Shown piece after piece: positions 42,047 to 63,132 of a stretch of DNA of 64,000 bases. The position numbers were made by a program, and so were the translations under genes. The notes under the pieces are model-generated. The model was not told the DNA's origin. It saw only the letters and a list, made by a program, of their open reading frames with translations, and made no database searches. The stretch comes from Phocaeicola salanitronis DSM 18170 (GTDB lineage: Bacteria; Bacteroidota; Bacteroidia; Bacteroidales; Bacteroidaceae), in contig NC_015164.1 in the NCBI RefSeq assembly GCF_000190575.1, positions 3,682,001 through 3,746,000 on the forward strand, read 5' to 3'. The first letter of the stretch is position 1, and each line of letters begins with the position of its first letter.

Positions 42047-42094
42047 TAATGGCTTGGAAAGGAATATCGTTCAAAGGTTATCTTTCCTTGTTAG
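42047..42094. repeat. attC-like cassette repeat 1
   Basis: TAATGG...TTGTTAG; outer arms GGAAAGG and TCTTTCC, central GTTCA. Follows the two-gene membrane cassette. Confidence 0.85.
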
Positions 42095-42205
42095 TACCTA
42101 AGTTCATAATCTCTTGAATGGTCAGCAAAGGGCGGTATTTTGTTGTTGAATCGCCCTTTAAAAATCTGCATATTGTGTTTTTATACCCTTACATGAACAA
42201 TGGAA

Positions 42206-42589
42206 TTAAAAGAATAATGCAAGTCCTAATAATACAATAAAAGGAGTAAATATGAAAAGATATGCCCATACATTGGAACTGTGTTCATACACCTTTCTTT
42301 CCATAATCTTCTCATTCCTATGTTTATACCGATAATAAAAATAAAGGCTGCTCCATAAGGATAACATAATGGCAAGGACTATCAAAAACACATTAGCTGC
42401 ATTCTTTTGCGGTGAATATTCCATTATGATATAATAGTATATAACTGCGACGTCCACTAAATAGAATAGCAGGATTGTGGACATGATAAATGGCACATGT
42501 GTATTCAGATACATACTGGTATCCATATATCGGGTCAATACTTGAATCTTGTAAAACAAGTATTCTAATATTCTGTGAACTATATTCAT
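42206..42589 (-). CDS. Array cassette: membrane protein, second gene of a two-gene cassette
   Basis: A 127-residue protein with three hydrophobic segments (about 34-55, 67-85 and 108-127). Only 12 bp separate it from the membrane gene upstream and no hairpin repeat lies between them, so the two travel together. Unknown family. Confidence 0.64.
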   Translation of the reverse strand: MNIVHRILEYLFYKIQVLTRYMDTSMYLNTHVPFIMSTILLFYLVDVAVIYYYIIMEYSPQKNAANVFLIVLAIMLSLWSSLYFYYRYKHRNEKIMERKVYEHSSNVWAYLFIFTPFIVLLGLALFF

Positions 42590-42601
42590 ATTATTGTTGT
42601 C

Positions 42602-43081
42602 TTATAAGCTTTTGAGTAATATATAGAACGTTGCAAACTGTATAATTATGGAAATCACATAGATACCATAATATTGCACATATTTTCTCTCTTTGTCGAA
42701 TTGCTTGAAATACTTTCTGTATTTGTCCTTCTTGAACAAGAGATGATTATTGATACGATATACTAATACCCCGAGAACTACCCATAGTAGTAAAAAAAGA
42801 AAATCCGATTCTAATACAGTTATCAATAAAGTTTTTATTCTTGAAAACTGAATGCCGATAATACATATAACGGCAATTATCCAAAGGCTGATACGATATA
42901 CAGAAATAATAGCCAAGACTGAAATCCATGTATTAATACCTTTATCTGCCGCATCAGCCTCTATCTTTTTACTAATTGATATAATACGATTTATATAATT
43001 ATTATTCCATTTCTTTAATCCAAGCCAATAAAAGGGATTAATAAAGTCTGTACAAAAAATAGAATAGTATTTTATATGCAC
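42602..43081 (-). CDS. Array cassette: membrane protein related to the one at 59480
   Basis: A 159-residue protein: an INPFYWLGLKKWNN segment, two or three membrane segments, then FKKDKYRKYFKQFDKERKYVQYYGIYVISIIIQFATFYILL. The 177-residue protein encoded at 59480-60013 has the same plan and near-identical motifs (LNPFYW, NDKYRKYFAKFEKEKKYLLYYGIYVVSLIVQFATFY), so this is a repeated immunity-type family in the array. Function unknown. Confidence 0.68.
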   Translation of the reverse strand: MHIKYYSIFCTDFINPFYWLGLKKWNNNYINRIISISKKIEADAADKGINTWISVLAIISVYRISLWIIAVICIIGIQFSRIKTLLITVLESDFLFLLLWVVLGVLVYRINNHLLFKKDKYRKYFKQFDKERKYVQYYGIYVISIIIQFATFYILLKSL

Positions 43082-43193
43082 AATAATAAATCATATTATA
43101 GTATTTCTCCATCAAATCTTTCATTCCGCTGTTTTTTTGTGTATGTGAGAACAATGTATTTAGTTGCCATCTCGATTTTGTTATAAACTTAAT

Positions 43194-43571
43194 TTATCTA
43201 TGGATATAATAATCTTTAAGCAGAAACGGAAGGATAAACCAGCTTATTGTACCTATTACAGAAATAGCAACAAAAAACCAACTTTTCTTGTTGTTGCTGT
43301 TATTCCTGTAGTGATTGTCCCACCTTCGGTATCTTTTTGTGTCTTCCCAAAATACAATTTCATTTATAAACATAAATAAAAGAGAAACACATATATAAAC
43401 AACGATTTTGTTCTCATTAATAAAATGAAATGGTGCTATCAGCAGCATTATCAATGCGATAAATGGAAAATAGAAAAACAATCCGCCGATGTAATTTCCG
43501 GCTCGCCCATATCCAAGTAATCCCCAGAAAAAATACTTGATTGTAAAATACCAATAGATATACCAGTTCAT
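43194..43571 (-). CDS. Array cassette: membrane protein
   Basis: A 125-residue protein with about four hydrophobic segments (FTIKYFFWGLLG, FFYFPFIALIMLLI, IVVYICVSLLFMFI and FVAISVIGTISWFILPF). No hairpin repeat separates it from the gene at 42602, so it may share that cassette, or a repeat was lost. The 112-bp gap between them holds no feature I can see. Unknown family. Confidence 0.62.
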   Translation of the reverse strand: MNWYIYWYFTIKYFFWGLLGYGRAGNYIGGLFFYFPFIALIMLLIAPFHFINENKIVVYICVSLLFMFINEIVFWEDTKRYRRWDNHYRNNSNNKKSWFFVAISVIGTISWFILPFLLKDYYIHR

Positions 43572-43593
43572 AATGTTAATCTCAAATTGTTTA

Positions 43594-43640
43594 TAATGGG
43601 TTGCAGCTTGCCGCCGTTAGGCGGTACAGGTGCTTGTTAC
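43594..43640. repeat. attC-like cassette repeat 2
   Basis: TAATGGG...CTTGTTAC; arms GCAGCTT/AGGTGC and TGCCGCC-type inner stem around GTTA. Follows the gene at 43648. Confidence 0.85.
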
Positions 43641-43647
43641 CGATTTT

Positions 43648-44199
43648 TTACGAACATTGCCAAAATCCTGCGATTATTTCATTGGTTATATGATGCTTAT
43701 ACAGGTATAATGCTCCATATCCGAAAGGATAACTGCCAATGAGAACATCATCATTATAACCATCCTCGTCTATTGACAAGAAAAAAGAAAAGCCCTGTTG
43801 CTCTAATTCTTTATAATAGAATTCTTCATCTTGAATCAAAGAAGGGGTACCACCTATTTTTACAAGTATATTTTCACTATCCTTATCTTCTGAATATTCA
43901 CTAATAGAACACATTCTTAAATTAGCGTTTCGTCTTTCTACACAATTACCAATTTCAGAAAATTCATGCTCTACTATTTTTACTGCTATTGAAGGATATA
44001 TATTATTGTCTATAAGAGTGTTATAGTCTTGATGAATCAAGATGGAAAGCATAGTATTCTCCTTTTCAGGATGTACTAATGTTGCATAGAATTTATAATC
44101 GCAGGAGATTTGTTCTTCTATACATTTAGGAGGATTACCACCAATCCTGCCTTTTACATTCTTATCGAATGGAATACATTTGGCATATCGTTCGTTCAT
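43648..44199 (-). CDS. Array cassette: predicted immunity protein, DUF1963/YwqG-like pattern
   Basis: A 183-residue cytoplasmic protein. GGNPPKCIEE, then a KIGGTPSLIQDEEFYYKELEQQGFSFFLSIDEDGY block and FGYGALYLYKH: the 'GG-x-P ... Q' spacing recalls DUF1963-type proteins, which occur among predicted immunity proteins. The call is tentative. One repeat lies on each side. Confidence 0.6.
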   Translation of the reverse strand: MNERYAKCIPFDKNVKGRIGGNPPKCIEEQISCDYKFYATLVHPEKENTMLSILIHQDYNTLIDNNIYPSIAVKIVEHEFSEIGNCVERRNANLRMCSISEYSEDKDSENILVKIGGTPSLIQDEEFYYKELEQQGFSFFLSIDEDGYNDDVLIGSYPFGYGALYLYKHHITNEIIAGFWQCS

Positions 44200-44225
44200 A
44201 CTTTCTTTGTTTTTATTATTATCGA

Positions 44226-44271
44226 TAATGGTTTAGCGGGAAACGGCTTGTCCGTTATCCTGCGTTGTTAG
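44226..44271. repeat. attC-like cassette repeat 3
   Basis: TAATGG...CGTTGTTAG; outer arms AGCGGGAAACGG and CCGTTATCCTGC pair with unpaired bases. Follows the gene at 44287. Confidence 0.85.
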
Positions 44272-44286
44272 CATCATATTTAACTA

Positions 44287-44703
44287 TCAGCAGAAAGCGA
44301 CATCTCCCGTTCCAACTTCAACAATATCATATTTGCCATCATTAATCCTTATCTTAATGCCACAACCATGCTCAATATCAAATTCAACTCTAAATTCCAG
44401 TCCAAACAATTCCTCTGCGTTCTGTTCAAACAAGACGAAAATATGTGTCAATTCAATATCCTGCATACATGCTTCAATTTTATAGGTATCTTTAGCCCAT
44501 GCTATAACCGAACTACAAGCCAGACTATACCATTCTGACAGGTTATTGACAAATGAGGCAATCTTTTCTTTATATTCATCTGTCAGTTCTTCTTCTGATG
44601 CAAACAAACTATCTGACAATGTGATATAAACCTCATTACCTAAATCTTTTAATGACACATACATTTCAAGATTTTCGTCAAAAATTATTTCAGTCGCTTT
44701 CAT
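44287..44703 (-). CDS. Array cassette: predicted immunity protein (DUF6985-like end)
   Basis: A 138-residue soluble acidic protein whose C-terminus, FDIEHGCGIKIRINDGKYDI then VGTGDVAF, matches a motif common in predicted bacterial immunity proteins (DUF6985-like). The family name is uncertain. Acidic charge and small size are usual for proteins that block a toxin in the cytoplasm. Confidence 0.6.
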   Translation of the reverse strand: MKATEIIFDENLEMYVSLKDLGNEVYITLSDSLFASEEELTDEYKEKIASFVNNLSEWYSLACSSVIAWAKDTYKIEACMQDIELTHIFVLFEQNAEELFGLEFRVEFDIEHGCGIKIRINDGKYDIVEVGTGDVAFC

Positions 44704-44731
44704 ATTTTATTGTTTTTAGTTATGTTGATGC

Positions 44732-44778
44732 TAATGGCTAAGCGGGGAACGCTGTTAAGCGTTATCACGCTTTGTTAC
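44732..44778. repeat. attC-like cassette repeat 4
   Basis: TAATGG...TTTGTTAC; arms GCGGGGAACGC and GCGTTATCACGC around TGTTAA. Follows the DUF4303 gene. Confidence 0.85.
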
Positions 44779-44786
44779 CAACTTTA

Positions 44787-45323
44787 TTATTCACTTTCAG
44801 CAGCTTCTTGAAGATATTCTTCAATATCTTCAGAGTTGTTTAGCTCCAAAGCTCTCTGCACATTTGAAGCATCAGGCGGCATTAATTCTACATTTATCAA
44901 AATACTCTTGCGTGATTGATTTTGTGCAAAAAGTCCTTCTTTGTCCAAGATTGACATTGCTTTCACCATAGCAGTTAGCCTGACATCAAGCTCCTTTCCC
45001 CAATCTTCATCATTCAAACTATCAATATTCGCCCGATGTTCAAAGAGATGTTTTACATCACTAAAATATTCGTCGTAGCCAAAAGCATAATATGGCGAAT
45101 CTGCATAAGACCATTTTATACTTTGTGCATATGTTTCAGAGTTTGATTGTATTACTCTGCCCAATGCTTCCCACGACCATGCAGAAATGACAGGAGCAAA
45201 ACCTTCACCTGTCGTCAGAAGCGCACAATAATAAAAATGTTCGCCATTGCTAAACAACTTTTGGAAAGCCATTCTTGCGGCTTTTGTTATGGCTGCTATA
45301 AGTATTTCTGTTTCTTTATTCAT
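44787..45323 (-). CDS. Array cassette: DUF4303 immunity protein
   Basis: A 178-residue protein. The start at MNKETEIL is chosen because the longer frame runs back through the promoter module. YYCALLTTGEGFAPVISAWSWEAL is the typical DUF4303 core. DUF4303 occurs in predicted polymorphic-toxin immunity genes. It is the first gene after promoter module B, so it should be the best-expressed of its sub-array. Confidence 0.78.
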   Translation of the reverse strand: MNKETEILIAAITKAARMAFQKLFSNGEHFYYCALLTTGEGFAPVISAWSWEALGRVIQSNSETYAQSIKWSYADSPYYAFGYDEYFSDVKHLFEHRANIDSLNDEDWGKELDVRLTAMVKAMSILDKEGLFAQNQSRKSILINVELMPPDASNVQRALELNNSEDIEEYLQEAAESE

Positions 45324-45353
45324 AAAACAATTGTTGGTAATGTATTGATAACA

Positions 45354-45378
45354 ACACCTGTCAGGAATCGGACATTCC
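45354..45378. other. ACACCTGT site, sub-array B (candidate primary insertion site)
   Basis: ACACCTGTCAGG followed by ATCGGACATTCC. A similar sequence occurs between the recombinase and its first cassette (57488-57512) and in sub-array D (60584-60608), each time between a promoter or recombinase and the first cassette. Confidence 0.5.
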
Positions 45379-45402
45379 ACTAATCCGAGCCATGCGGGAC
45401 AT

Positions 45403-45690
45403 ATATCCTGACCTCCATGCCCCCAAAGGTACGAAAAGAATCGGAGAAACAAACCGAATGGTTTGGAAAAGTCGCAAAAGAGTTGGCGGAAGGGGAAGAA
45501 AGGCTGTAGGCATCCTGCCATTTCCCCCGCCAACCACCGGAGCCACCAGCCTTGAAACTGGCGAAAAAGGAAATGCCGCTTTCTCTTTTTCGCCGGGCAC
45601 ATACTTCGCTGCCGATGGAAACAGGTTTAAGCCAGTTTGGATGTATATACAAAAGGATGGACTAAACTTACGGGAGTGGATAGCAATCGG
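45403..45690 (-). repeat. Array repeat module, copy B, with promoter
   Basis: About 290 bp repeated at 48067 and 60627. It holds, on the minus strand, TTTG - 18 bp - TACCTTTG (box at 45424-45431), the dyad CAAACCGAATGGTTTG over the -33 box (45450-45465), a GGCGGAAGGGG stretch and the GGCGAAAAAG/CTTTTTCGCC hairpin. It should drive the leftward genes from 45323. The frame open across it is not a gene. Confidence 0.75.
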
Positions 45691-45716
45691 GATGCAATCC
45701 GGTGTGCTGGATTTGA

Positions 45717-45762
45717 TAATAATTCAACAGGGAACGCTGTAAGCGTTATCACGCTTTATTAT
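45717..45762. repeat. Decayed attC-like repeat
   Basis: Matches the repeat family (AACAGGGAACGC...GCGTTATCACGCTTTATTA) but has TAATAATTC instead of TAATGGTTC and TTATTA instead of TTGTTA. It lies where module B meets the gene at 45767 and is probably inactive. Confidence 0.65.
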
Positions 45763-45766
45763 AAAC

Positions 45767-46516
45767 TCAATTTATTTTACATGATTGGCTTTTATTTACC
45801 CACCATTCCTGTTCTTCCACTTCACGAGCCTTTTGTATCTCGTCCGTTGTCAGATGCTCATTGTGATAGGCATTATATAGATTTTCCCAACCATTCTTAC
45901 GATATTTCGGTGATACAACCCATTCGCCTGCATCATTAAACAGGCAAAAGTTTGCAGGAGTATCTGGTATAATCTCATCTGCCCAAGAACAGACTTTTGT
46001 CAGTCCCCTTGCGGATTTCCACTTGCCCCGATATTCAGATAAGTTCAATTTCAGTTCTGCTATTTCATTCCGTCCTTTCTCTATTTGTTGTCCGCTCATC
46101 CGATACTCTTGCTTGAATGAACCGGAGAATGTACCGCTATATCGTTTATCTCCGTATTCCGCAAACGAATAATGCCCGTATATGAAACCGTCCACTTCCG
46201 TATATTCACTTTTTATCATTTGAGAACAGGAAGAAATGCTATCTATACAAACCTTTCCTCTAAACGGACAGATTACGGATAGTCGGGTACGACTGACACC
46301 CTTTATCTCATATTCTCTACTATTCATTTTCCGGACTTCGGTAATATGAATGTCAATTCGGCTACAATCTTCTCCTAATATGCCAATCATGTTTGAATTG
46401 TCAAACAAGCTCGAAAGGTCTTGCTGCAAAATATCCACTTTGTGATTTTGGGGATAAGCCGCTCCACAAAACCAAAAGAGTAAAAAGATACTGATATAGT
46501 ATATTTTCTGTTTCAT
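45767..46516 (-). CDS. Array cassette: secreted protein (predicted periplasmic immunity)
   Basis: A 249-residue protein with signal peptide MKQKIYYISIFLLFWFCGAAYPQ, a beta-rich middle (about 30-150) and a helical tail ending NKSQSCKIN. No family recognised. A periplasmic product suits protection against cell-wall-directed toxins. Confidence 0.66.
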   Translation of the reverse strand: MKQKIYYISIFLLFWFCGAAYPQNHKVDILQQDLSSLFDNSNMIGILGEDCSRIDIHITEVRKMNSREYEIKGVSRTRLSVICPFRGKVCIDSISSCSQMIKSEYTEVDGFIYGHYSFAEYGDKRYSGTFSGSFKQEYRMSGQQIEKGRNEIAELKLNLSEYRGKWKSARGLTKVCSWADEIIPDTPANFCLFNDAGEWVVSPKYRKNGWENLYNAYHNEHLTTDEIQKAREVEEQEWWVNKSQSCKIN

Positions 46517-46534
46517 ATTTTACATTACTGTTTA

Positions 46535-46584
46535 TAATGGTCGTTTGACAAGGAACGGCGTAAGACGTTATCTTTTCTCGTTAA
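46535..46584. repeat. attC-like cassette repeat 5
   Basis: TAATGG...CTCGTTAA; arms GACAAGGAACGGC-type and GACGTTATCTTTTC, with mismatches. Follows the gene at 46593. Confidence 0.8.
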
Positions 46585-46592
46585 TAATACAT

Positions 46593-47027
46593 TTATAGCT
46601 CCTTAAAAGTTATATCATCCGACACTCCCAGTTCTTTCCGTTTGACTTCAAAATCCGTTTTACTGAAAGCCCCGAATTTGTTTTCTTGCGCTTCCCATGC
46701 TTCTTGCGTGTTATTTACGGGAATGATGTAATATTCTGTCGTATTCTTGTCATAACGCTGCATGGATATGCCCATGCTGTCCTTCAAAGCACGATATGCC
46801 TTGACCAGAATAAAATCATCGTCATATCCCACTGCGTAAACACTCGCTCCGGTTATTCCCATATAAGGCGCATCATTATCGTTTTGTCGGTGATAACACA
46901 CATCCATATCTTCTTTGGTATCTACCGCTATCAAATAATAGTTCCCTGTAAGATGCCGTTCATATACAAACTCGCAACTTTGCATTAGGGACAACAATAA
47001 AAGGAGTAATGATATAACTGTTTTCAT
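46593..47027 (-). CDS. Array cassette: lipoprotein
   Basis: A 144-residue lipoprotein; the signal MKTVISLLLLLLSLMQSCE puts the lipidated cysteine at residue 18. The small body has GNYYLIAVDTKEDMDVCYH, typical of short Bacteroides lipoproteins found in immunity arrays. Unknown family. Confidence 0.66.
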   Translation of the reverse strand: MKTVISLLLLLLSLMQSCEFVYERHLTGNYYLIAVDTKEDMDVCYHRQNDNDAPYMGITGASVYAVGYDDDFILVKAYRALKDSMGISMQRYDKNTTEYYIIPVNNTQEAWEAQENKFGAFSKTDFEVKRKELGVSDDITFKEL

Positions 47028-47042
47028 GTGCTCAATTATTAT

Positions 47043-47088
47043 TAATGGACAGAAAGGAGCATCGTCAGATGCTATCTTTCGTCGTTAC
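47043..47088. repeat. attC-like cassette repeat 6
   Basis: TAATGG...CGTCGTTAC; arms AGAAAGGAGCATC and GATGCTATCTTTC. The stop codon of the gene at 47072 lies inside it. Confidence 0.88.
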
Positions 47089-47467
47089 CGGTATTTTTTC
47101 TTAATGTCTTACGAATAAAGTTATCTAATTCTTTGGACTTATAGAATTTCCATGATGAATATGCAATCATATTACCTTCTGGATTTTGAGATACACTCCA
47201 GTAATTCATACATTCTTTATCTACATAATTCTTAATTGTAATGATTTCTTCCGGCGATAAGCTGCTTAATTGAACAAAATATTCGCCGGAATAATCTTTG
47301 TTGATAACTGACGTACTATCAACAAACTTGTTCATGTGTGCGATACAAGCATAAAGGGCATATCCTTTTGCTTCTTCAAGCCGTTCTCTATATACAGGCT
47401 TTTGCGTTGTACAACTTGCGGTTACATAAAGTATGCACACCATTGTTATGAATTGTAGACGCTTCAT
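47072..47467 (-). CDS. Array cassette: lipoprotein, family with three copies in the window
   Basis: A 131-residue lipoprotein (signal ending VTASCTTQ). Motifs: YRERLEEAKGYALYACIAHMNKF, DKECMNYWSVSQ and SSWKFYKSKELDNFIRKTLRK. Nearly identical to the gene at 53840 and close to that at 60148. The last residues (NDER and stop TAG) are encoded by the downstream hairpin repeat. Confidence 0.72.
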   Translation of the reverse strand: MKRLQFITMVCILYVTASCTTQKPVYRERLEEAKGYALYACIAHMNKFVDSTSVINKDYSGEYFVQLSSLSPEEIITIKNYVDKECMNYWSVSQNPEGNMIAYSSWKFYKSKELDNFIRKTLRKNTGNDER

Positions 47468-47491
47468 ATCTATAACTTTAGTCGTTATCGG

Positions 47492-47537
47492 TAATGGTTC
47501 AGCAGGGAACGGTTTTCCCGTTATCCTGCGTTGTTAG
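47492..47537. repeat. attC-like cassette repeat 7
   Basis: TAATGG...CGTTGTTAG; arms GCAGGGAACGG and CCGTTATCCTGC around TTTT. Follows the gene at 47573. Confidence 0.85.
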
Positions 47538-47572
47538 CGAAATATTACTTGAATCTTTTTTATCATATATAT

Positions 47573-48034
47573 TTAGTTATAAATCAATTTGCATATACCT
47601 ATTCCTATCAAGAACACCAATAGAGGGGAACAATATATCATCCATGCTGGGATTATCTTGTTCCACATGTTACCTTTGTATTTCAAAAGTATAGCGGCAG
47701 TCCTTTTGCGAGTATATCGCAAAAATAATGCGATAAAGCACAATATACCTACACCCACAAATATACTTTGTATCTGAATGGGAGTGAAGTTCTTTAATGA
47801 AAACCAATCATCTGTCAGTGCTTTGTTAAAGAAGATACTGAAAAAGAAAAATATTATCATAGAAACCATGCCCAATAAGAGGCAAGCACTGAGACGTGCA
47901 GCTTCATTATGTTTTCGATAAACCACATATAACCGATAATACAGGTAATCAAAAAAATAATACCTGTATTTTCTCCCTTCTCGCATCAAATTGTTTCGTG
48001 CGAAATGACTTATTGTCTCTTTTCTGTATCTCAT
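47573..48034 (-). CDS. Array cassette: membrane protein related to the one at 62694
   Basis: A 153-residue protein with three or four hydrophobic segments and a DYLYYRLYVVYRKHNEAARLSA N-terminal block. KYKGNMWNKIIPAWMIYCSP corresponds to KYQGCTRNKLISNWMIFCIP of the 127-residue protein at 62694-63077. First gene after promoter module C. A shorter start at MREGRKYRYY is possible. Confidence 0.68.
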   Translation of the reverse strand: MRYRKETISHFARNNLMREGRKYRYYFFDYLYYRLYVVYRKHNEAARLSACLLLGMVSMIIFFFFSIFFNKALTDDWFSLKNFTPIQIQSIFVGVGILCFIALFLRYTRKRTAAILLKYKGNMWNKIIPAWMIYCSPLLVFLIGIGICKLIYN

Positions 48035-48066
48035 CTTTGCTGAAATTTTCGCTAATATTTATAATA

Positions 48067-48350
48067 CCATACGGGCATATATCCTAACCTCCATGCCCCC
48101 AAAGGTACGAAAAGAATCGGAAAAACAAACCGAACGGTTTGGAAAAGTCGCGAAAGAGTTGGCGGAAGGGGAAGAAAGGCTGTCGGCATCCTGCCATTTC
48201 CTCCGCCAACTACCGGAGCCACCAGCCTTAAAACTGGCGGAAAAGGAAATGCCGCTTTCTCTTTTTCGCCGGGCACATACTTCGCTGCCGATGGAAACAG
48301 GTTTAAGCCAGTTTGGATGTATATACAAAAGGACGGACTAAACTTACGGG
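48067..48350 (-). repeat. Array repeat module, copy C, with promoter
   Basis: As copy B: TACCTTTG (minus strand) at 48100-48107 and the perfect dyad CAAACCGAACGGTTTG at 48126-48141 over the -33 box. It joins directly to the DUF4274 gene on its right, whose 3' end it forms, and drives the gene at 47573. Confidence 0.75.
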
Positions 48351-48361
48351 AATATGTGCTA

Positions 48362-48931
48362 TCAGTTCCCATCCGCGAATAAAGCATCAGGAATCTTCTC
48401 TATATACTCATTAGTTTTGGGTACTTCCGCATCTTCATATTCAGAGGATAGCCCATGCGCAAAGCCTTGTGATAGAGCTTTTCCCTCAATGAATTTCAAT
48501 ACTTTGGAGTTCTTGATATTTATATCAGATTCGGGAACATGCTCAAGGTCTCCATATTGGGCATAATAGTAGTCCGGGCTCATGAGCCAATAAACCATTC
48601 TTGCGGTACGTATATCACAACATGGGTTGCTTAAACATTGCATAACAGTCCAGTTTCCATTATCATAGTTGTAACCATCCAATAGATAATGCAATTCTTC
48701 CGAATGTTGGATTGATGCTATTTGGCTTAATATTTCGTTGGCAAATTCTTCCAATCCTATTTTTCGTTGGCGGGAATATGCTTTGAAAAATTCTTCCTCC
48801 TCACAACCTTCCATATTCTTATCAAATCTGGATTGAGGCATTGAATAGTAATAAGTATCTCCGGCACATTCCGCCCATACTTTCAAAATATTCAACTCCT
48901 GCTTACGCTGCTCGCTTACATTTTCATACAT
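48362..48931 (-). CDS. Array cassette: DUF4274 immunity protein, copy 1
   Basis: A 189-residue acidic protein. ELHYLLDGYNYDNGNWTVMQ then NPCCDIRTARMVYWL is the DUF4274 pattern found in predicted immunity proteins. The copy at 60916-61485 differs by two residues (ILSQ/ISSQ and KALS/KTLS). Its 3' end runs into repeat module C rather than into a hairpin repeat. Confidence 0.78.
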   Translation of the reverse strand: MYENVSEQRKQELNILKVWAECAGDTYYYSMPQSRFDKNMEGCEEEEFFKAYSRQRKIGLEEFANEILSQIASIQHSEELHYLLDGYNYDNGNWTVMQCLSNPCCDIRTARMVYWLMSPDYYYAQYGDLEHVPESDINIKNSKVLKFIEGKALSQGFAHGLSSEYEDAEVPKTNEYIEKIPDALFADGN

Positions 48932-48983
48932 AGCTCTATTATTTTTATTATTGATAATGTTTATTACCTGTAATCCTCCGCCA

Positions 48984-49057
48984 ACTCACTTTTCCGAGTT
49001 GCCCAACTCGTTTCCGTGAGTTGCCCGACTCACCGAGCTGAGTTGCCCGACTCACGG
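48984..49057. repeat. Cluster of GAGTTGCCC hairpins, copy 1
   Basis: Three small hairpins in a row: CGAGTT/AACTCG, GTGAGT/ACTCAC and GAGT/ACTC, each around TGCCC. The duplicate at 61535 has a fourth. It abuts the HU-like remnant and lies upstream of the DUF4274 gene. Confidence 0.7.
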
Positions 49058-56081: not shown

Positions 56082-56093
56082 AATTATTATCGT

Positions 56094-56142: not shown

Positions 56143-56153
56143 AGACTATTTTA

Positions 56154-56699
56154 TTAACTTAATTCCATTTCCAATATCGTATATACCTGACCTTTGGCAT
56201 TGCGAATAAGTATGGAAATGAAATCAAAAGCATTACATTTTAGATACTCTTTGTTTACCCAGTCGCCATTGATTAGTTGCACTTGTTGGGTGGTTGGGTA
56301 TTCATCATCAAAATCGGTATTACTGCATCCAAGAATGATAATTTCAAATTCAGTTTCAGCGTCTTTATCTACAAACTGAATTTCATGAGATAATGGTCGT
56401 TCTCTCTTATCCTCTATTAGTAATGCTTCATATCCATTATACCTTTCATCGAAAAGAGTAATCTTTTCTCCTGAATTTACTGAATACGCATATATTGCCA
56501 AAGGGAAATTTTGCTTGTTTGCCATGTAATTATCAGTTAATTCACCACAAAAATAAAGTCTGAATTTAGTTTCATGTTGTGGTGATATTAACCGACCTTT
56601 CCAATACACAGGATTATTAAACCATGAATCTTCTATCAACTCAGGAAAATAATCTTTGTGTATGATGAATGGTTTTAGATAATCCGGTATATATTCCAT
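56154..56699 (-). CDS. Array cassette: unknown predicted immunity protein
   Basis: A 181-residue acidic soluble protein, beta-rich, with FEIIILGCSNTDFDDEYPTT and a final VYTILEMELS strand. No family recognised. Second cassette downstream of the recombinase, so probably one of the younger insertions if new cassettes enter at the recombinase end. Confidence 0.62.
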   Translation of the reverse strand: MEYIPDYLKPFIIHKDYFPELIEDSWFNNPVYWKGRLISPQHETKFRLYFCGELTDNYMANKQNFPLAIYAYSVNSGEKITLFDERYNGYEALLIEDKRERPLSHEIQFVDKDAETEFEIIILGCSNTDFDDEYPTTQQVQLINGDWVNKEYLKCNAFDFISILIRNAKGQVYTILEMELS

Positions 56700-56722
56700 A
56701 TATTTCTGTATTAAGTTGTCTG

Positions 56723-56770
56723 TAATGGTTTGGAAAGGAACTCCGTTCAGGGGTTATCTTTCCTTGTTAG
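56723..56770. repeat. attC-like cassette repeat 20
   Basis: TAATGG...CCTTGTTAG; arms GGAAAGGAACTCC and GGGGTTATCTTTCC around GTTCA. Confidence 0.87.
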
Positions 56771-56775
56771 TAGCG

Positions 56776-57444
56776 TCATTCCATTTTGTACATTTTTTTC
56801 TCCCAACCTTTTAATTCTTGAAGAACAGGTTTGGGATTTTGCAATATCTGATTAAGAAATTCTACAAAATTAGGTGCTAATACTTCCTTTTCAGGTGTTT
56901 CGTAATCAAAGAGTACAACTTCACCTTCTTTATTCTCATTGTCTGTCAATTTAAGAGCTATCACACCATAATCAGAATATCGACCTATCGCAAAATACCC
57001 TTTATCAAGAATTTCCTCTTGCAGTTCCTTGTTATTTTCAATCAGGATTTTATTCCATGAATGGATAGGCTTTGGATATAGACAAACATCTAAATCCCAA
57101 AATATTTCATAAAAGTGCTTGTATTTCAGATAAGTCTTATATGAAAGCGGAAGAATAATATTCAAAATACTCTCTAATTGAGAAATATCCTCGTCTGAAA
57201 TTTGATTATCTATCGCTTTCCATACATGGTCTTTTTCTGTAATAATGTCCACCATATAATTTGTATGTTCCGGTTGGGTAACATATATCTTGACTGATTT
57301 TCCTTGAAGTATGGCATTATCCAGTGAATCCCGCATTTCAGACTCTATGGGTTCTTCATAAGAAGAAACATACATAAGGTATTCTCTATGCTCTTGCACA
57401 AAGCCCAAACATTCATCTACATATTTCTTTATTATTTCTTCCAT
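56776..57444 (-). CDS. Array cassette: SUKH (SMI1/KNR4) immunity protein
   Basis: A 222-residue acidic protein. From about residue 80 it follows the SUKH pattern: ISDEDISQLESILNIILPLSYKTYLKYKH, later GYFAIGRYSDYGVIALKL and VVLFDYETPE. SUKH proteins are the commonest immunity proteins against polymorphic toxins, especially nucleases. First cassette downstream of the recombinase. Confidence 0.74.
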   Translation of the reverse strand: MEEIIKKYVDECLGFVQEHREYLMYVSSYEEPIESEMRDSLDNAILQGKSVKIYVTQPEHTNYMVDIITEKDHVWKAIDNQISDEDISQLESILNIILPLSYKTYLKYKHFYEIFWDLDVCLYPKPIHSWNKILIENNKELQEEILDKGYFAIGRYSDYGVIALKLTDNENKEGEVVLFDYETPEKEVLAPNFVEFLNQILQNPKPVLQELKGWEKKMYKME

Positions 57445-57487
57445 ATTCTTATTTTGTTTTCAGTTCGCTACTAATTTGTTTATATAT

Positions 57488-57534
57488 ACACCTGTAGGTA
57501 TAGGATATTTCGATAACCGACACCTGGCAGGTGT
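57488..57534. other. Candidate primary insertion site (attI-like) next to the recombinase
   Basis: Between the recombinase stop codon and the first cassette. ACACCTGTAGG...TAGGATATTTCG (57488-57512) resembles sites at 45354 and 60584. Beside it lies the 15-bp palindrome ACACCTGGCAGGTGT (57520-57534), whose half matches the first ACACCTG. Inverted half-sites around a short gap are what a Xer-type enzyme binds. No promoter box was seen here. Confidence 0.5.
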
Positions 57535-57560
57535 GTTTCCTAATCTCTAATAGCCGCACC

Positions 57561-58667
57561 CTACGAATCATCCAGCGAATCAAGCGGATTTGGGATTTTA
57601 GCTTTGTGTGCATTCGATGTATGAAGATATATGGCTGTAGTCTTTATGTCGTTGTGTCCCAACAGTTCCTGTATCGTGTGCAAGTCTGTCCCTTGTTCCA
57701 AAAGGTGGGTGGCAAACGAGTGGCGGAGCATGTGTACATGCACTCGGTGCTTGATGCCCGCACGTTGTGCGGCTTCTTTCAGCACTTTCACCAATGCGCT
57801 TGCTGAGTATGGTTCTCCGGGCGTTTCGCCCTCAAACAGCCATTTCTTCGGTCGGTATTCACGGAAGTACCGCCGCAGCTCTTCCAGCAGCTTGGGCGAA
57901 AGCAGCGAGTAGCGGCATTTCTTGCCCTTGCCCATGATACGCACGGACATCATTTCGCTGTTGATGTCTTTTGGTGTGAGGTTCAGCAATTCACTACGCC
58001 GCAATCCGGCTGAATAAACCAAGGAAATCATGCAGTGATGCTTGATGTTAGACAGTTGGTCGAGGATGCGTTTTATCTCGTTCTTGCTCAATACTTCCGG
58101 GACGGTCTTGTATTCTTTGGCTCGTGTGATGCCGCCGTAATACTGCCGTTTCCCGCCTTTCACCTGCTCGTAGTAGAACTTGATGGCGTTGATGCGCATA
58201 TTCTGCTGTGAAACAGAAATTTTCTTTTCGTTTACAAGATAAAGAATGTACCTGTTGATGTCCGCCACTTTCAGGCGGTCGATGTTGCGCCCTTTGTGGT
58301 ACTCCACGAAGTCGCTGAAATAAGCCCGGTAGGTCTTTATGGTGGATGGGCTGTAGCGTTTCTGTTCCAGCAGTTCCAGATAGCCTTCCGGCAGCGTGTA
58401 TTCCCTCTTGGGTCTGGGATGCCGCACATATACCTGGCTGTAATCAATGTAGGCATGGGGAGAATAGCGGTCGTAGAAATCCGACAGCTTGAAAACTGCA
58501 GCCGCCATGCAAGCGGAATCCTTGCCGGTCATTTCCACGCCTGTATCCTGGGCGAGCAGCAGGGGGATTGCCCCGTTTCCTGCATACTCTATCCGGACAT
58601 AATCCACACCATCCTTTTCTTCCTTGTGAAGAACGATGCTTCCTCTTTGCCTCTGAGCCTTGTCCAT
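57561..58667 (-). CDS. XerC/D-like tyrosine recombinase of the immunity array
   Basis: About 368 residues; the start MDKAQRQRG is chosen because the TACCTTTG promoter box lies 26 bp upstream, inside the longer frame. An extra N-terminal domain (1-100) precedes a SAM-like DNA-binding domain (YSPSTIKTYRAYFSDFVEYH) and the catalytic domain: R in AGLRRSEL, K in MGKGKK, HMLRHSFATH, LLGHNDIKTT and Y in AIYLHTS. All catalytic residues are present. The IntI-specific extra helix of integron integrases is not seen. It reads towards the 13-cassette run and should insert and shuffle cassettes at the hairpin repeats. Confidence 0.92.
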   Translation of the reverse strand: MDKAQRQRGSIVLHKEEKDGVDYVRIEYAGNGAIPLLLAQDTGVEMTGKDSACMAAAVFKLSDFYDRYSPHAYIDYSQVYVRHPRPKREYTLPEGYLELLEQKRYSPSTIKTYRAYFSDFVEYHKGRNIDRLKVADINRYILYLVNEKKISVSQQNMRINAIKFYYEQVKGGKRQYYGGITRAKEYKTVPEVLSKNEIKRILDQLSNIKHHCMISLVYSAGLRRSELLNLTPKDINSEMMSVRIMGKGKKCRYSLLSPKLLEELRRYFREYRPKKWLFEGETPGEPYSASALVKVLKEAAQRAGIKHRVHVHMLRHSFATHLLEQGTDLHTIQELLGHNDIKTTAIYLHTSNAHKAKIPNPLDSLDDS

Positions 58668-58692
58668 GTCATCGAATTTTGCTTCATGCCCC

Positions 58693-58734
58693 CAAAGGTA
58701 CGAAAAGAATCGAAGAAACAAACCAAACGGTTTG
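58693..58734 (-). promoter_or_regulatory. Promoter of the array recombinase with -33 dyad
   Basis: Minus strand: TTTG (58719-58722), 18 bp, TACCTTTG (58693-58700). CAAACCAAACGGTTTG (58719-58734) covers the -33 box, as in the rteAB and sub-array promoters. Homology to the repeat modules ends about 50 bp further right. Confidence 0.7.
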
Positions 58735-59479: not shown

Positions 59480-60013
59480 TTATACCACTATTTCTATAAG
59501 CAACAGATAGAAAGTCGCGAACTGGACTATCAGAGAAACGACATAGATGCCGTAGTAGAGCAGATACTTTTTCTCCTTCTCGAACTTGGCGAAATACTTC
59601 CTGTACTTATCGTTCTTGAATACAAATAATTCATTTATATAGCATAGATAGAAAATCAAGAATATAAGCAATAATAAAAGAATGAACTTGTACTCAAAAA
59701 TGGCAATTGGAACGCCTATGCCTAACATCTTTAAGACCTTACCGCCTACAATCAATACCATACAGAGCAACCAAAAACTGGTGCAACTTATGGCAAATAT
59801 CGCCCTTGAATCAATGAGTATATTTACTCCTCCATGAATTTCACTAACTTCTTGTTTCTCTATTCTTGATACAATACATTTCATGTACTTGTTGTTCCAT
59901 TTTGGGATGCTTATCCAATAGAAAGGATTCAAAAGTCTTTTGAATATAAAGAATAACAAATTATACTCGCAATAGTATAGTATATTGTAATATTTCTCCA
60001 ATAACTTTAGCAT
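59480..60013 (-). CDS. Array cassette: membrane protein related to the one at 42602
   Basis: A 177-residue protein: LNPFYWISIPKWNNKYM, then two hydrophobic segments (about 78-95 and 107-127), then NDKYRKYFAKFEKEKKYLLYYG and a last membrane helix. Same family as the 159-residue protein at 42602. No hairpin repeat lies between it and the TetR gene on its 3' side, so the cassette end was lost when the TetR segment came in or was never there. Confidence 0.68.
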   Translation of the reverse strand: MLKLLEKYYNILYYCEYNLLFFIFKRLLNPFYWISIPKWNNKYMKCIVSRIEKQEVSEIHGGVNILIDSRAIFAISCTSFWLLCMVLIVGGKVLKMLGIGVPIAIFEYKFILLLLLIFLIFYLCYINELFVFKNDKYRKYFAKFEKEKKYLLYYGIYVVSLIVQFATFYLLLIEIVV

Positions 60014-60030
60014 GATTTTGATGGCTTAAC

Positions 60031-60122
60031 TTAATACACTATAATCACAAGGTCTTTTTGCGCTTCGCTGGCTTCATCGAAAATGAAATTCAAGTCGTCC
60101 ATTTCCTGCTCGTAGTCGTAAT
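60031..60122 (-). pseudogene. 3' fragment of the gene at 63166, cut at a hairpin repeat
   Basis: Ninety-two bases match the end of the intact gene at 63166-63687 (coding for YEQEMDDLNFIFDEA... and QKDLVI-VY, stop). The match stops exactly at TAAT, where the intact gene continues TAATCGCC and this fragment continues TAATGGTTAG, the start of hairpin repeat 21. No start codon remains. Confidence 0.8.
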
Positions 60123-60164
60123 GGTTAGAAAGGAGCATCGTCAGATGCTATCTTTCGTTGTTAC
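60119..60164. repeat. attC-like cassette repeat 21
   Basis: TAATGG...CGTTGTTAC; arms AGAAAGGAGCATC and GATGCTATCTTTC. Joined on its left to a truncated gene. Confidence 0.88.
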
Positions 60165-60543
60165 CGATATTTTTCCTTAATGTCTTACGGATAAAGTTAT
60201 CCAAGTCTTTGGAGTTATAGAATTTCCATGATGAATATGCAATCATATTACCTTCCGGATTGTGTGATATGCTCCAATAATTCATACATTCTTTATCCAC
60301 ATATTCCTTAATTCCGATAATTTCTTCCAGCGATAAGCTGCTTAATTGAACAAAATATTCGCCGGAATAATCTTTGTTGATAACTGATGTACTATCAACA
60401 AACTTGTTCATGTGTGCGATGCAAGCATAAAGGGCATATCCTTTTGCTTCTTCAAACCTTTCTCTATATGCAACCTTTTGCGTTGTACAACTTGCCGTTA
60501 AACAAATCACACACATCATTGTTATCATTTGTATATGTTTCAT
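60148..60543 (-). CDS. Array cassette: lipoprotein, third copy of the family
   Basis: A 131-residue lipoprotein; the start MKHIQMITMMCVICLTASCTTQ is used because the longer frame extends through promoter module D. About 90% like those at 47072 and 53840. The end NNER and TAG are encoded by the repeat. First gene behind promoter module D. Confidence 0.72.
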   Translation of the reverse strand: MKHIQMITMMCVICLTASCTTQKVAYRERFEEAKGYALYACIAHMNKFVDSTSVINKDYSGEYFVQLSSLSLEEIIGIKEYVDKECMNYWSISHNPEGNMIAYSSWKFYNSKDLDNFIRKTLRKNIGNNER

Positions 60544-60583
60544 GTCTATAACTTTAATCGTTGTTGATAATGTATTGACAATA

Positions 60584-60608
60584 AAACTTGTCGGGCATCG
60601 GACATTCC
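60584..60608. other. ACACCTGT-like site, sub-array D
   Basis: AAAACTTGTCGGG followed by ATCGGACATTCC, a weaker match to the sites at 45354 and 57488, in the same position between promoter and first cassette. Confidence 0.4.
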
Positions 60609-60626
60609 ACCAACCCGCGCCATGCA

Positions 60627-60905
60627 GAGCGTATATCCTAACCTCCATGCCCCCAAAGGTACGAAAAGAATCGAAGAAACAAACCGAATGGTTTGGAAAA
60701 GTCGCGAAAGAGTTGGCGGAAGGGGAAGAAAGGCTGTAGGCATCCTGCCATTTCCCCTGCCAACCACCGGAGCCATCAGCCTTGAAACTGGCGAAAAAGG
60801 AAATGCCGCTTTCTCTTTTTCGCCGGGCACATACTTTGCTGCCGATGGAAACAGGTTTAAGCCAGTTTGGATGTATATACAAAAGGACGGACTAAACTTA
60901 CGGGA
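60627..60905 (-). repeat. Array repeat module, copy D, with promoter
   Basis: As copies B and C: TACCTTTG (minus strand) at 60654-60661, dyad CAAACCGAATGGTTTG at 60680-60695, and the GGCGAAAAAG/CTTTTTCGCC hairpin. Joined on its right to the second DUF4274 gene exactly as copy C is to the first. Confidence 0.75.
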
Positions 60906-60915
60906 ATATGTGCTA

Positions 60916-61485
60916 TCAGTTCCCATCCGCGAATAAAGCATCAGGAATCTTCTCTATATACTCATTAGTTTTGGGTACTTCCGCATCTTCATATTCAGAG
61001 GATAGCCCATGCGCAAAGCCTTGTGATAGAGTTTTTCCCTCAATGAATTTCAATACTTTGGAGTTCTTGATATTTATATCAGATTCGGGAACATGCTCAA
61101 GGTCTCCATATTGGGCATAATAGTAGTCCGGGCTCATGAGCCAATAAACCATTCTTGCGGTACGTATATCACAACATGGGTTGCTTAAACATTGCATAAC
61201 AGTCCAGTTTCCATTATCATAGTTGTAACCATCCAATAGATAATGCAATTCTTCCGAATGTTGGATTGATGCTATTTGGCTTGATATTTCGTTGGCAAAT
61301 TCTTCCAATCCTATTTTTCGTTGGCGGGAATATGCTTTGAAAAATTCTTCCTCCTCACAACCTTCCATATTCTTATCAAATCTGGATTGAGGCATTGAAT
61401 AGTAATAAGTATCTCCGGCACATTCCGCCCATACTTTCAAAATATTCAACTCCTGCTTACGCTGCTCGCTTACATTTTCATACAT
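60916..61485 (-). CDS. Array cassette: DUF4274 immunity protein, copy 2
   Basis: 189 residues, differing from the copy at 48362 by two residues. The near identity extends on both sides, into module D and into the hairpin cluster, so a segment of about 1.2 kb was duplicated recently. Two copies may raise dosage or serve as a homologous-recombination handle. Confidence 0.78.
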   Translation of the reverse strand: MYENVSEQRKQELNILKVWAECAGDTYYYSMPQSRFDKNMEGCEEEEFFKAYSRQRKIGLEEFANEISSQIASIQHSEELHYLLDGYNYDNGNWTVMQCLSNPCCDIRTARMVYWLMSPDYYYAQYGDLEHVPESDINIKNSKVLKFIEGKTLSQGFAHGLSSEYEDAEVPKTNEYIEKIPDALFADGN

Positions 61486-61534
61486 AGCTCTATTATTTTT
61501 ATTATTGATAATGTTTATTACCTGTAATCCCCCG

Positions 61535-61635
61535 CCAACTCACTTTTCCGAGTTGCCCAACTCGTTTCCGTGAGTTGCCCGACTCACCGAGCTGAGTTGC
61601 CCAACTCACGATTTCAAGTTGCCCGACTCACGGAA
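61535..61635. repeat. Cluster of GAGTTGCCC hairpins, copy 2
   Basis: Same as the cluster at 48984 but with one extra unit (CAACTCACGATTTCAAGTTG), giving four. Shows that the unit number changes between otherwise near-identical duplicates. Confidence 0.7.
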
Positions 61636-61781
61636 ACGGGTCAGTCGTCCCGTCAGCTATCTGCATAGCCACTTCGTTTTCGTCCACCATCTTGGTGGTG
61701 TACTGAACGGGATACCATTTCTTAGGTTCGTCCGGTTCTGACGGGTTGATGCGTTGTACCGCTTTCAAAAAAAATGCTCAT
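61628..61781 (-). pseudogene. N-terminal remnant of an HU-like protein, copy 2 (frameshifted)
   Basis: Same remnant as at 49052-49204, but the A-run has eight instead of seven A (T on the coding strand), which shifts the frame after MSIFF and leads to an early stop. It confirms that the remnant is no longer needed as a protein here. Confidence 0.7.
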
Positions 61782-61805
61782 TGTCGTTTGTTTTTTAGGG
61801 GTTTA

Positions 61806-61852
61806 TAATGGCTGGACAAGGAGCTGCATTTAGCAGCTAACTTGGCTCGTTA
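61806..61852. repeat. attC-like cassette repeat 22
   Basis: TAATGG...CTCGTTAT; arms CAAGGAGCTGC and GCAGCTAACTTG around ATTTA. Confidence 0.86.
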
Positions 61853-61860
61853 TCAATATA

Positions 61861-62580
61861 TTAAAACCACTTCCTATCTCTATCCTTCATTTCCTGCATC
61901 GTAGGATATGGATGTGTATCTCTAAATGTATATTCATCTACAAAATCCTTTAATTCAACCATTCTAAAGCCATTAAAACCGTTTCCATTGATTAGGTCGG
62001 CAACTGAATCTTCTGCGACCAATACATTTTTCATCCAAAAAATATGAGGATATGCCGTTTGTTCTCTAAGTCGGAAATCAAGATACAAATATGAAGTTAT
62101 AACTTTATTCATTCTCTTAATCCTGTTCGAGTTCTCCAAATCGATGAATTGGTTATATGACAAATGCTTAAATCTTATAAAGTAATACTTTTTATCGCTT
62201 ATAGGAGCCAACTTTCTGGAGACTGGCGTTACTTCGCATATATCATATTTATCATAACACTTAAATTGCTTCAGGAACTCGAAAAGACAGGAAGATAATA
62301 TAACCCCTTTGGAATGTGAATAATAATCGGTTTCCAGCCTTTTCACATTCGAGCATATCCAATAAAAGTGGGTAGGCAATTTATAATTGTCCGTTAAGGG
62401 GACAGGCTTTCCGGCTCTCATAGGTGAATAGTTAAACCAATCGTTGCTATAAACAGGATTGTTATAAGGATTTTTAGATTTTATTTCCTCTGTAAAAGTA
62501 GAGTCAATATATGGCGGTGCTATTGGAGTACCATGCCAAGGGGTTAATAGCATTTTGAATTTTACCATATCTTCTGTCAT
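61861..62580 (-). CDS. Array cassette: Imm43-like immunity protein
   Basis: A 239-residue protein. SCLFEFLKQFKCYDKYDICEVTPVS, then DKKYYFIRFKHLSYNQFID, matches the plan of the protein at 55386 and of Imm43-type immunity proteins. Cytoplasmic, with a charged C-terminus (MKDRDRKWF). Confidence 0.68.
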   Translation of the reverse strand: MTEDMVKFKMLLTPWHGTPIAPPYIDSTFTEEIKSKNPYNNPVYSNDWFNYSPMRAGKPVPLTDNYKLPTHFYWICSNVKRLETDYYSHSKGVILSSCLFEFLKQFKCYDKYDICEVTPVSRKLAPISDKKYYFIRFKHLSYNQFIDLENSNRIKRMNKVITSYLYLDFRLREQTAYPHIFWMKNVLVAEDSVADLINGNGFNGFRMVELKDFVDEYTFRDTHPYPTMQEMKDRDRKWF

Positions 62581-62602
62581 TGTATTCTCTTTTAATTATT
62601 GA

Positions 62603-62648
62603 TAATGGTTAGAAAGGAGCATCGTTAGATGCTATCTTTCGTTGTTAC
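62603..62648. repeat. attC-like cassette repeat 23
   Basis: TAATGG...CGTTGTTAC; arms AGAAAGGAGCATC and GATGCTATCTTTC around GTTA. Confidence 0.88.
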
Positions 62649-62693
62649 TAACTTTATTATTTATAAGACTAATCGAATTTTTCTGCCGATTTA

Positions 62694-63077
62694 TCAAGCT
62701 ATAAACAGTTTACGAAAAATTAAAATTCCTATGATTGCGATATAAATCGGAATGCAGAATATCATCCAATTAGAAATTAGCTTGTTTCTTGTGCAACCTT
62801 GATACTTCTTTTTTAATTCCAGAATTTTCTTTTTCCTGTATCGAATACAGCAATATATGATTAACAGGCATAAAGGAACGAGTAAGAAGCATAAGCTATA
62901 AAGTCCCTCTAAGAACCACGCATATTTATGTTGCATGTCATACCATTCCTTAATAGCGAAAAAGGCTATAATGAGTGATATGCCCAAGCTATAACATAAG
63001 TGGATGACAGCACTAAGGTATGGTGGGTCGCCATGCTTTTCATACATTCGATATAGTCTATAAAATATATAATCCAT
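62694..63077 (-). CDS. Array cassette: membrane protein related to the one at 47573
   Basis: A 127-residue protein with three hydrophobic segments (about 24-42, 57-78 and 103-122). DYIFYRLYRMYEKH and NKLISNWMIFCIPIYIAIIGI match the 153-residue protein at 47573. Probably the same immunity family with a different specificity. Confidence 0.66.
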   Translation of the reverse strand: MDYIFYRLYRMYEKHGDPPYLSAVIHLCYSLGISLIIAFFAIKEWYDMQHKYAWFLEGLYSLCFLLVPLCLLIIYCCIRYRKKKILELKKKYQGCTRNKLISNWMIFCIPIYIAIIGILIFRKLFIA

Positions 63078-63086
63078 ATTTGTTAG

Positions 63087-63132
63087 TAATGGTTAAGCAG
63101 GGAACGGCTTGTCCGTTATCCTGCTTCGTTAA
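63087..63132. repeat. attC-like cassette repeat 24
   Basis: TAATGG...CTTCGTTAA; arms GCAGGGAACGG and CCGTTATCCTGC around CTTGT. Confidence 0.85.

Follow-up and report, generated by a model that had tools for sequence, protein, structure and literature searches.

Cassettes of a Bacteroidales defence array end in covarying hairpins beside an IntI-related recombinase without the I2 insert

We analysed a 64,000-nt stretch of Phocaeicola salanitronis DSM 18170 (GCF_000190575.1, NC_015164.1, positions 3,682,001–3,746,000, forward strand; hereafter the window), in which rows of small co-oriented genes are separated by short inverted repeats and flank a tyrosine recombinase gene. Judged by gene content, low guanine-plus-cytosine (GC) content, recombinase and intergenic motifs, the array is a recombinase-associated acquired interbacterial defence (rAID) system as described in the accessible part of PMC12247911. 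Comparison of sequences reveals repeat arms that covary, neighbour exchange confined to one end of the repeat, a conserved attI-like site beside the recombinase, a consistent orientation of sites and genes, and a recombinase that lacks the I2 insert of integron integrases. The array is thus probably an integron-type platform, on which an IntI-related recombinase without I2 would act on folded bottom-strand sites of rAID cassettes.

In the arrangement that we propose, the repeats would be the recombination sites of mobile gene cassettes within the rAID immunity array, each cassette comprising one immunity-type gene and one site at its 3′ end. The plus (non-coding) strand would fold into a hairpin built from an outer TAATGG/TYGTTA box rich in G·T wobbles, a short spacer, a variable six-pair arm, an internal loop (mostly G opposite AT), a second variable six-pair arm and a terminal loop. 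The adjacent I2-less recombinase would then cut inside TAAT at the hairpin base, joining cassettes to one another and to the attI-like site beside its own gene.

Hairpin sites and arm covariation

A search of both strands of the window for TAATGG-N33..39-YGTTA returned 24 matches, all on the plus strand between 42047 and 63131, against a mean of 0.51 and a largest value of 3 in 100 dinucleotide shuffles. Lengths are 44–49 bp. A first-pass annotation of this DNA had likewise counted 24 repeats that begin TAATGG, and had given their ends as fixed; this holds for the strict sites, but the invariance is partly ascertainment, as the pattern itself fixed both ends. Among 252 deduplicated profile-search matches, 52 are without the strict ends, some being merely one base off at the profile edge, and the genuine variants include GAATGG, CAATGG, TAATGA and GTTC. 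The GTTA or GTTCA that the annotation placed at the centre of the repeats is present and corresponds to the loop of the predicted hairpin. The array goes on beyond the right edge of the window with 20 further strict sites, past which 20 kb contain none, and 22 more occur at a second locus of this genome. The window sites, assigned by pattern match and arm pairing except for one degenerate site found by the profile search, are as follows.

42047–42093, plus: attC-like site 1
43594–43639, plus: attC-like site 2
44226–44270, plus: attC-like site 3
44732–44777, plus: attC-like site 4
45717–45761, plus: degenerate attC-like site (TAATAA...TTATTA), additional to the 24
46535–46583, plus: attC-like site 5
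47043–47087, plus: attC-like site 6
47492–47536, plus: attC-like site 7
49229–49275, plus: attC-like site 8
49820–49865, plus: attC-like site 9
50579–50623, plus: attC-like site 10
51086–51129, plus: attC-like site 11
51373–51418, plus: attC-like site 12
51860–51905, plus: attC-like site 13
52309–52356, plus: attC-like site 14
52973–53018, plus: attC-like site 15
53811–53855, plus: attC-like site 16
54263–54309, plus: attC-like site 17
55332–55379, plus: attC-like site 18
56094–56141, plus: attC-like site 19
56723–56769, plus: attC-like site 20, the 3′ end of the first cassette
60119–60163, plus: attC-like site 21
61806–61852, plus: attC-like site 22
62603–62647, plus: attC-like site 23
63087–63131, plus: attC-like site 24

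Covariation within the window was measured over 11 base pairs in the 22 distinct sites, the structure being the consensus that RNAalifold derived from these very sites, lengthened by two pairs. Standard pairs fill 88.4% of cells (64.5% after shuffling), and in 56 cells both partners have changed (18.1 after shuffling); none of 500 shuffles reached either value. Double changes are seen in 10 of the 11 pairs (7.1 shuffled; 7/500), and the covariation score of 0.632 (0.220 shuffled; 0/500) falls to 0.11–0.20 when partners are slid by 1–3 columns. One of the five measures, the number of further pair types, does not rise above the shuffles (20 versus 18.7; 153/500). Swapping 3′ arms between window sites reduces Watson–Crick pairing from 10.4 to 6.3 of 12 pairs, with the observed value reached by 0 of 20,000 permutations, and RNAalifold recovers the same hairpin unaided, with double changes in eight of nine pairs.

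Sites of related genomes were then added to those of this one, and 154 of 166 distinct sites were kept, after the removal of 8 that were too dissimilar from any other and 4 in classes 7, 10 and 12. With no structure supplied, the nine top-covarying column pairs all fall within two nested helices; four of them score higher than any pair did when a purpose-written script simulated 60 null sets along a tree, and the other five have E values of 0.07–2.3. Relatedness was countered by keeping one row for each of 12 clusters, where own arms form 10.2 Watson–Crick pairs of 12 and permuted arms 5.4 (0/20,000). The unpaired G and AT of the internal loop are mostly conserved. Arrays of a second rAID clade (clade 2, recombinases 46–50% identical) have the same layout with different arm sequences. 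The first-pass annotation had held that the arms co-vary, and the comparisons with shuffles and tree-based nulls bear it out.

The exchange point and an attI-like site

We compared 246 deduplicated sites together with their flanks. In 150 site pairs the right flank, which is the 3′ end of the gene that owns the site, is common and the left flank is not; across the 123 of these with equal repeat length, the repeat is 85–100% identical at each position, and identity to the left of TAATGG is 20–49%, save for a TT at −7/−6 (75–78%). A further 121 pairs have the left flank in common (84–98%) as far as the last base ahead of TAATGG; within the arms identity then drops to 28–84%, depending on position, and most of the 25 left-sharing examples shown switch arm class directly after TAATGG. 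Both flanks are common to only three pairs. Because the whole repeat is shared with the gene side and identity breaks at TAATGG, both arms evidently move together with the gene upstream of them, which is the geometry of attC, and the neighbour is switched at the TAATGG end.

On the plus strand the attI-like and attC-like sites have TAAT in common (TAAC in most clade-2 attI), and since bases 5–6 remain attached to the right-hand side, exchange probably falls inside these four bases. The crossover base suggested by cassettes that start with C counts as supporting evidence only, as it rests on an IS91-like element that could have inserted itself. At L085:6137 (minus strand, 0-based) a cassette has been joined at a chance CAAT in the leader of its neighbour, which agrees with exchange in TAAT and is perhaps the use of a secondary site.

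The putative partner beside the recombinase is a single feature of the window:

57472–57560, minus: attI-like site, a conserved stretch past the recombinase stop, ending in ATT immediately before the A at the start of the first cassette

We surveyed 42 distinct stretches downstream of recombinases. In 29 clade-1 loci a common region ends in ATT and gives way to 24 different 15-base first-cassette starts (a script count of 27 less three clade-2 rows, L054, L056 and L063, which were read by eye), and nine clade-2 loci have a conserved region of their own with the same abrupt end.

Strand, recombinase and competing explanations

The strand that folds can be read from wobbles, because what is a G·T pair on one strand is an A·C mismatch on its complement. 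On the plus strand, G·T outnumbers A·C in the variable arms by 64 to 23 (0.74), an excess not due to composition, since swapped arms give 0.53, with a maximum of 0.56 in 300 shuffles. An earlier tally of 43 versus 2 was set aside, as the fixed outer box had been mixed in; at position 43 a T or C lies opposite a fixed G, and the search pattern admitted only T or C there. Folding the strands separately as DNA, as raised in the first-pass annotation, favours plus in 121 and minus in 25 of the 154 sites (means of −8.4 and −7.0 kcal/mol, a difference of about 1.3), and the RNAalifold consensus fold is −9.0 on plus and −2.5 on minus. Summed over 27 loci, 132 sites lie on the strand opposite to the recombinase and 3 on the same strand. 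This signal points to folding of the non-coding (plus, bottom) strand, the strand of their sites that integrons use according to the accessible part of PMC8946536.

The candidate enzyme is encoded between arrays B and A (see below), within the row of genes and co-oriented with the cassettes:

57561–58721, minus: array recombinase frame, 386 codons from TTG, with N-terminal SAM-like and Phage_integrase domains and without the I2 insert

Its likely start is an ATG at 58667, giving 368 residues, the length of most listed homologues. The genome holds two close copies, in the window and at the second locus (96% identical). Matches at E ≤ 1e-80 occur in 22 of 399 genomes of the family, and at E ≤ 1e-130 in 3 of 392 genomes of the order and 9 of 61 of the genus, the own genome being included in each. 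The possibility of broken copies was rejected: in the six copies checked, the stop falls at residue 7–14, before the likely start.

Among solved structures the best match is Vibrio cholerae IntI4 (2a3v, E 1.4e-35), ahead of an archaeal Xer (1.2e-32) and XerD (1.3e-24), and the IntI4 match falls into two parts, one on either side of the missing insert. By fold, 2a3v again comes out on top in Foldseek, from a query model of moderate quality (predicted local distance difference test (pLDDT) 75.5, predicted template modelling score (pTM) 0.51). The integron-integrase model TIGR02249 scores 195.2 bits, below its cut-off of 265, and the archaeal XerA model has the top score, 214.3 against a cut-off of 220. 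In an alignment the I2 insert is present in IntI1 and IntI2 and absent from rAID enzymes, their Bacteroidota relatives and the enzymes of Sinorhizobium and Thiothrix, that of Sphingobium having just six extra residues at the insert position. A tree of 26 rows unites rAID clades 1 and 2 (100), adds the Bacteroidota I2-less enzymes (100) and then Sinorhizobium, Sphingobium and Thiothrix (97); IntI lies outside this group under midpoint rooting, but the root is weak, as the only further outgroup is a single Xer sequence entered under two names. The recombinase thus belongs, in a weakly rooted tree, to an I2-less family near IntI.

These results divide the interpretation offered by the first-pass annotation, that a recombinase without the extra helix of IntI uses folded single strands by a mechanism of separate origin. 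The missing helix is confirmed by the alignment, the split IntI4 match and the TIGR02249 score, and folded sites agree with the covarying arms, the one-ended exchange and the wobble bias. The separate origin is not supported in the form stated, because IntI4 is the best match by sequence and by fold and the I2-less family lies near IntI; common ancestry with integrons is no less likely.

Several observations weigh against folded sites, the support for which is comparative throughout. Outer TAAT/GTTA pairing appears in 0 of 154 predicted minimum-energy folds, the minus strand folds almost as well as the plus (−7.0 versus −8.4 kcal/mol), and 2 of the 154 sites, L035 and L020, pair their arms poorly, at 7 and 8 of 12 positions, and seem to be mixtures of two arm classes. 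Counted per context the wobble bias is moderate (46:20, or 55:21 and 41:18 at other cluster cuts). In clade 2, where the arm register was chosen by pairing, a raw 59:3 becomes 19:4 over 22 distinct arm pairs versus 21.5:8.5 with arms swapped (19 of 2,000 shuffles reach it), and composition accounts for part of this bias. Site pairs in the exchange comparison are non-independent, and in no fewer than three left-sharing examples out of 25 (51860 with L085; 56094 with L023 and L025) the two sites have the same arm class, leaving no place at which to set the break. Three clade-1 loci (L024, L032 and L048) among the 42 stretches have no recognisable attI. The weakly conserved TT, 6–7 bases outside the crossover, leaves room for contact with duplex DNA.

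That last feature belongs to an explanation which we regard as unlikely, namely that a Xer-like enzyme recombines double-stranded DNA with a half-site on either side of TAAT, the arms serving only to bind the recombinase or to form a cruciform now and then. Duplexes are the usual substrate of Xer enzymes, and the absence of I2 from this recombinase is in keeping with that. A half-site should, however, keep its sequence, whereas the arms change freely and keep mainly their pairing; information to the left of the crossover is low except near the TT, and a duplex substrate gives no reason for a G·T preference on one strand. It is very improbable that homologous recombination between repeats passively reshuffles the arrays, with the recombinase as a relic. 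The two sites that look like internal mixtures of arm classes would suit such shuffling, but breaks would be expected anywhere in the repeat and are found at TAATGG with the arms kept together, many of the exchanged sites are of different arm classes with little common sequence, and the recombinase frame is kept, the stops in the six copies checked preceding the likely start. Scarcely credible is a role of the repeats in the transcript (coding strand minus) as terminators or stability elements, with their position at cassette ends secondary: the genes are closely packed in one direction, and of the 20 array A sites 17 overlap a stop codon or lie within 17 bases of one, but wobbles should then favour the coding strand and do the opposite, the consensus fold is weaker on minus, Rfam matches no family in the array at gathering score (only a tRNA was found), and the exchange points coincide with TAATGG.

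The rAID array, its relatives and their meaning

The cassettes that would be moved by recombination at folded sites lie on both sides of the recombinase gene, and three of their genes have recognisable families:

42047–57471, minus: cassette array A, 20 strict sites, downstream of the recombinase in gene sense
59480–64000, minus: cassette array B, 4 strict sites in the window, continuing past its edge, upstream of the recombinase
56776–57444, minus: first cassette gene, SMI1/KNR4 (SUKH) immunity-type protein
55386–56081, minus: cassette gene, Immunity protein 43 (Pfam Imm43)
53027–53791, minus: cassette gene, DUF4274 protein

For array A 24 genes are listed, 23 inside it and one (41565–42023) just left of the first site. 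The array genes are on the minus strand and the sites on the plus, in a compact, co-oriented row: 17 of the 20 sites overlap the stop of the preceding gene or lie at most 17 bases from it (the exceptions being 42047, 47492 and 51086), and the next gene begins 10–36 bases past the site in 18 of 20 cases, some gene bounds having been set by hand for these distances. GC content of the listed genes is 28.5–39.5%, below 41% in all 24. Pfam identifies Imm43, SUKH and DUF4274 in three of eight array genes scanned and has no match in the other five; ten of ten cassette genes scanned have no match in NCBIfam, and ten of ten none in PADLOC.

As far as the accessible part of PMC12247911 describes them, rAID systems are Bacteroidales arrays in which immunity genes against type VI toxins accompany a tyrosine recombinase, and the mechanism of their biogenesis is stated there as not yet clear. 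Homology to the reference recombinase BF9343_RS08045 is among the criteria used there. The window corresponds to that description in its tyrosine recombinase upstream of the array (57561–58721), in at least two co-directional genes below 41% GC, in orphan immunity proteins (Imm43, SUKH and DUF4274) and in conserved intergenic motifs (the 24 sites), the common ground being a tyrosine recombinase, short, co-oriented, low-GC immunity-type genes and such motifs. Site structure, crossover point, attI and strand are absent from the same part of that source. The rAID identity is new relative to the first-pass annotation, as are exchange at one hairpin end, the attI-like site and the strand bias of the wobbles.

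A relaxase, a coupling protein and a two-component pair adjoin the array on its left, which suggests a conjugative element. One cassette is present three times (47043, 53811 and 60119), each time between different neighbours; compared with the first copy across 300 bases, the later two have 98% and 92% identity. Two related cassettes contain tandem repeats of 22-bp period (GAGTTGCCCAACTC-like, themselves palindromic) at 48981–49053 and 61535–61629. A leader-like element is repeated at 58693–58727 and 41141–41175, with related copies at 45399, 48075 and 60629; the copies upstream of the recombinase and at 41141 contain TTTG-N-TAnnTTTG, the Bacteroides promoter consensus, and the exact pattern is unmatched in the three copies inside the arrays. 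Locus L118 (Parabacteroides distasonis, NZ_OY725747.1) combines a rAID recombinase, a TetR gene and immunity genes on a record that is labelled a plasmid yet holds genes of chromosomal type.

The likeness to integrons extends to an attI-like site beside the recombinase, cassettes each closed by an imperfect palindrome, an exchange point at the outer edge of that palindrome that leaves the site with its gene, structure kept while sequence is free, probable folding of the bottom strand, and a recombinase nearest IntI4 among solved structures. Integrons also have extrahelical bases that the integrase reads and a Pc promoter that drives the array; what is seen here is a mostly conserved unpaired G and AT and, upstream of the recombinase, a promoter-like motif. 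Integron attC sites have the core GTTRRRY/RYYYAAC, and integrons cut at G^TT of GTTRRRY. In contrast, the exchange end here reads ATTA in gene sense, with GTTA kept at the other end, recombinase and cassettes are co-oriented, the sites are only 44–49 bp long, and the rAID enzyme has no I2 insert and scores below the integron-integrase family cut-off.

The acquisition of I2 has been credited with enabling integron integrases to use single-stranded folded sites, as set out in the accessible part of PMC7790495. The same source describes an I2-less Xer enzyme on a folded single strand, XerC with CTXphi; the CTXphi hairpin mimics the duplex dif site, whereas here arm sequence is free and the sites stand in cassette arrays. 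The rAID enzyme may belong to the integron-like tyrosine recombinase subgroup of PMC8138268, where, in the part accessible, the insertion is called essential for integron function and cassette arrays without I2 are not described. SE elements (SE-6945 and SE-6283) also combine a tyrosine recombinase with strand-biased activity (PMC9345347, in its accessible part), but they are integrative and circularise a copy of one strand, and are not arrays of hairpin-site cassettes. A search of titles and abstract openings, with most subscription journals outside its reach, returned no earlier report that rAID has folded or integron-like sites, or that Bacteroidota have integrons without I2.

Integron-like arrays beside I2-less Bacteroidota recombinases may form a wider class, for which the following loci are a lead. 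L033, from a Bacteroidetes metagenome-assembled genome, has a recombinase 48–49% identical, and downstream of it four co-oriented genes (alpha/beta hydrolase, DUF1214, cyclopropane synthase-like and fatty acid desaturase by Pfam) alternate with longer palindromes that have GTTGGC/GTTAGC ends, making L033:10800–15715 a candidate array; among the 42 stretches surveyed L033 likewise has no recognisable attI. We scanned 16 downstream stretches of 20 loci with I2-less recombinases for palindromes. L178, L179 and, less clearly, L165 contain several sites with different self-complementary arms and CGTTA or CGTTG ends. The results are noisy: sense to antisense matches are 4:3 in L178, 5:2 in L179, 3:1 in L165 and 4:4 in L173, a weak control in that palindromes can match both strands, and the remaining 12 stretches have 0 to 3 sense matches.

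At L009:11250–14374 an IS91-like transposase (Y2_Tnp, 406 residues) stands twice in tandem as the first cassettes, ending exactly at attI and at an attC-like site that ends GTTC. At E ≤ 1e-60 this transposase has five copies, spread over 4 of 301 genomes; four of the copies are at a rAID attI or directly behind such a copy, and the fifth (G202) starts within 200 bp of its clade-2 recombinase. Proteobacterial I2-less relatives of the rAID recombinase (L117 and L121) adjoin genes annotated as IS91-family transposases.

We offer tentatively, as somewhat short of an even chance, that cassette recombination at folded single strands without I2 characterizes a broad class of Bacteroidota platforms, of which rAID would be one branch and others would carry other cargo (L033, L178 and L179, with longer GTTA- or GTTGGC-ended palindromes), its ancestry maybe tied to IS91-type single-strand elements. 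A known system, rAID, displays the anatomy of an integron and the signatures of folded sites together with an integrase that lacks a part held necessary, from which we infer its mechanism. With the attI-like site, the region of exchange and the strand for delivery now defined, both questions that arise are open to test. If the reading is correct, an I2-less platform with folded sites would be a second, or older, solution to the use of single-strand sites, and it would bear on how gut bacteria gather immunity genes against type VI toxins, the process that the accessible part of PMC12247911 calls not yet clear.

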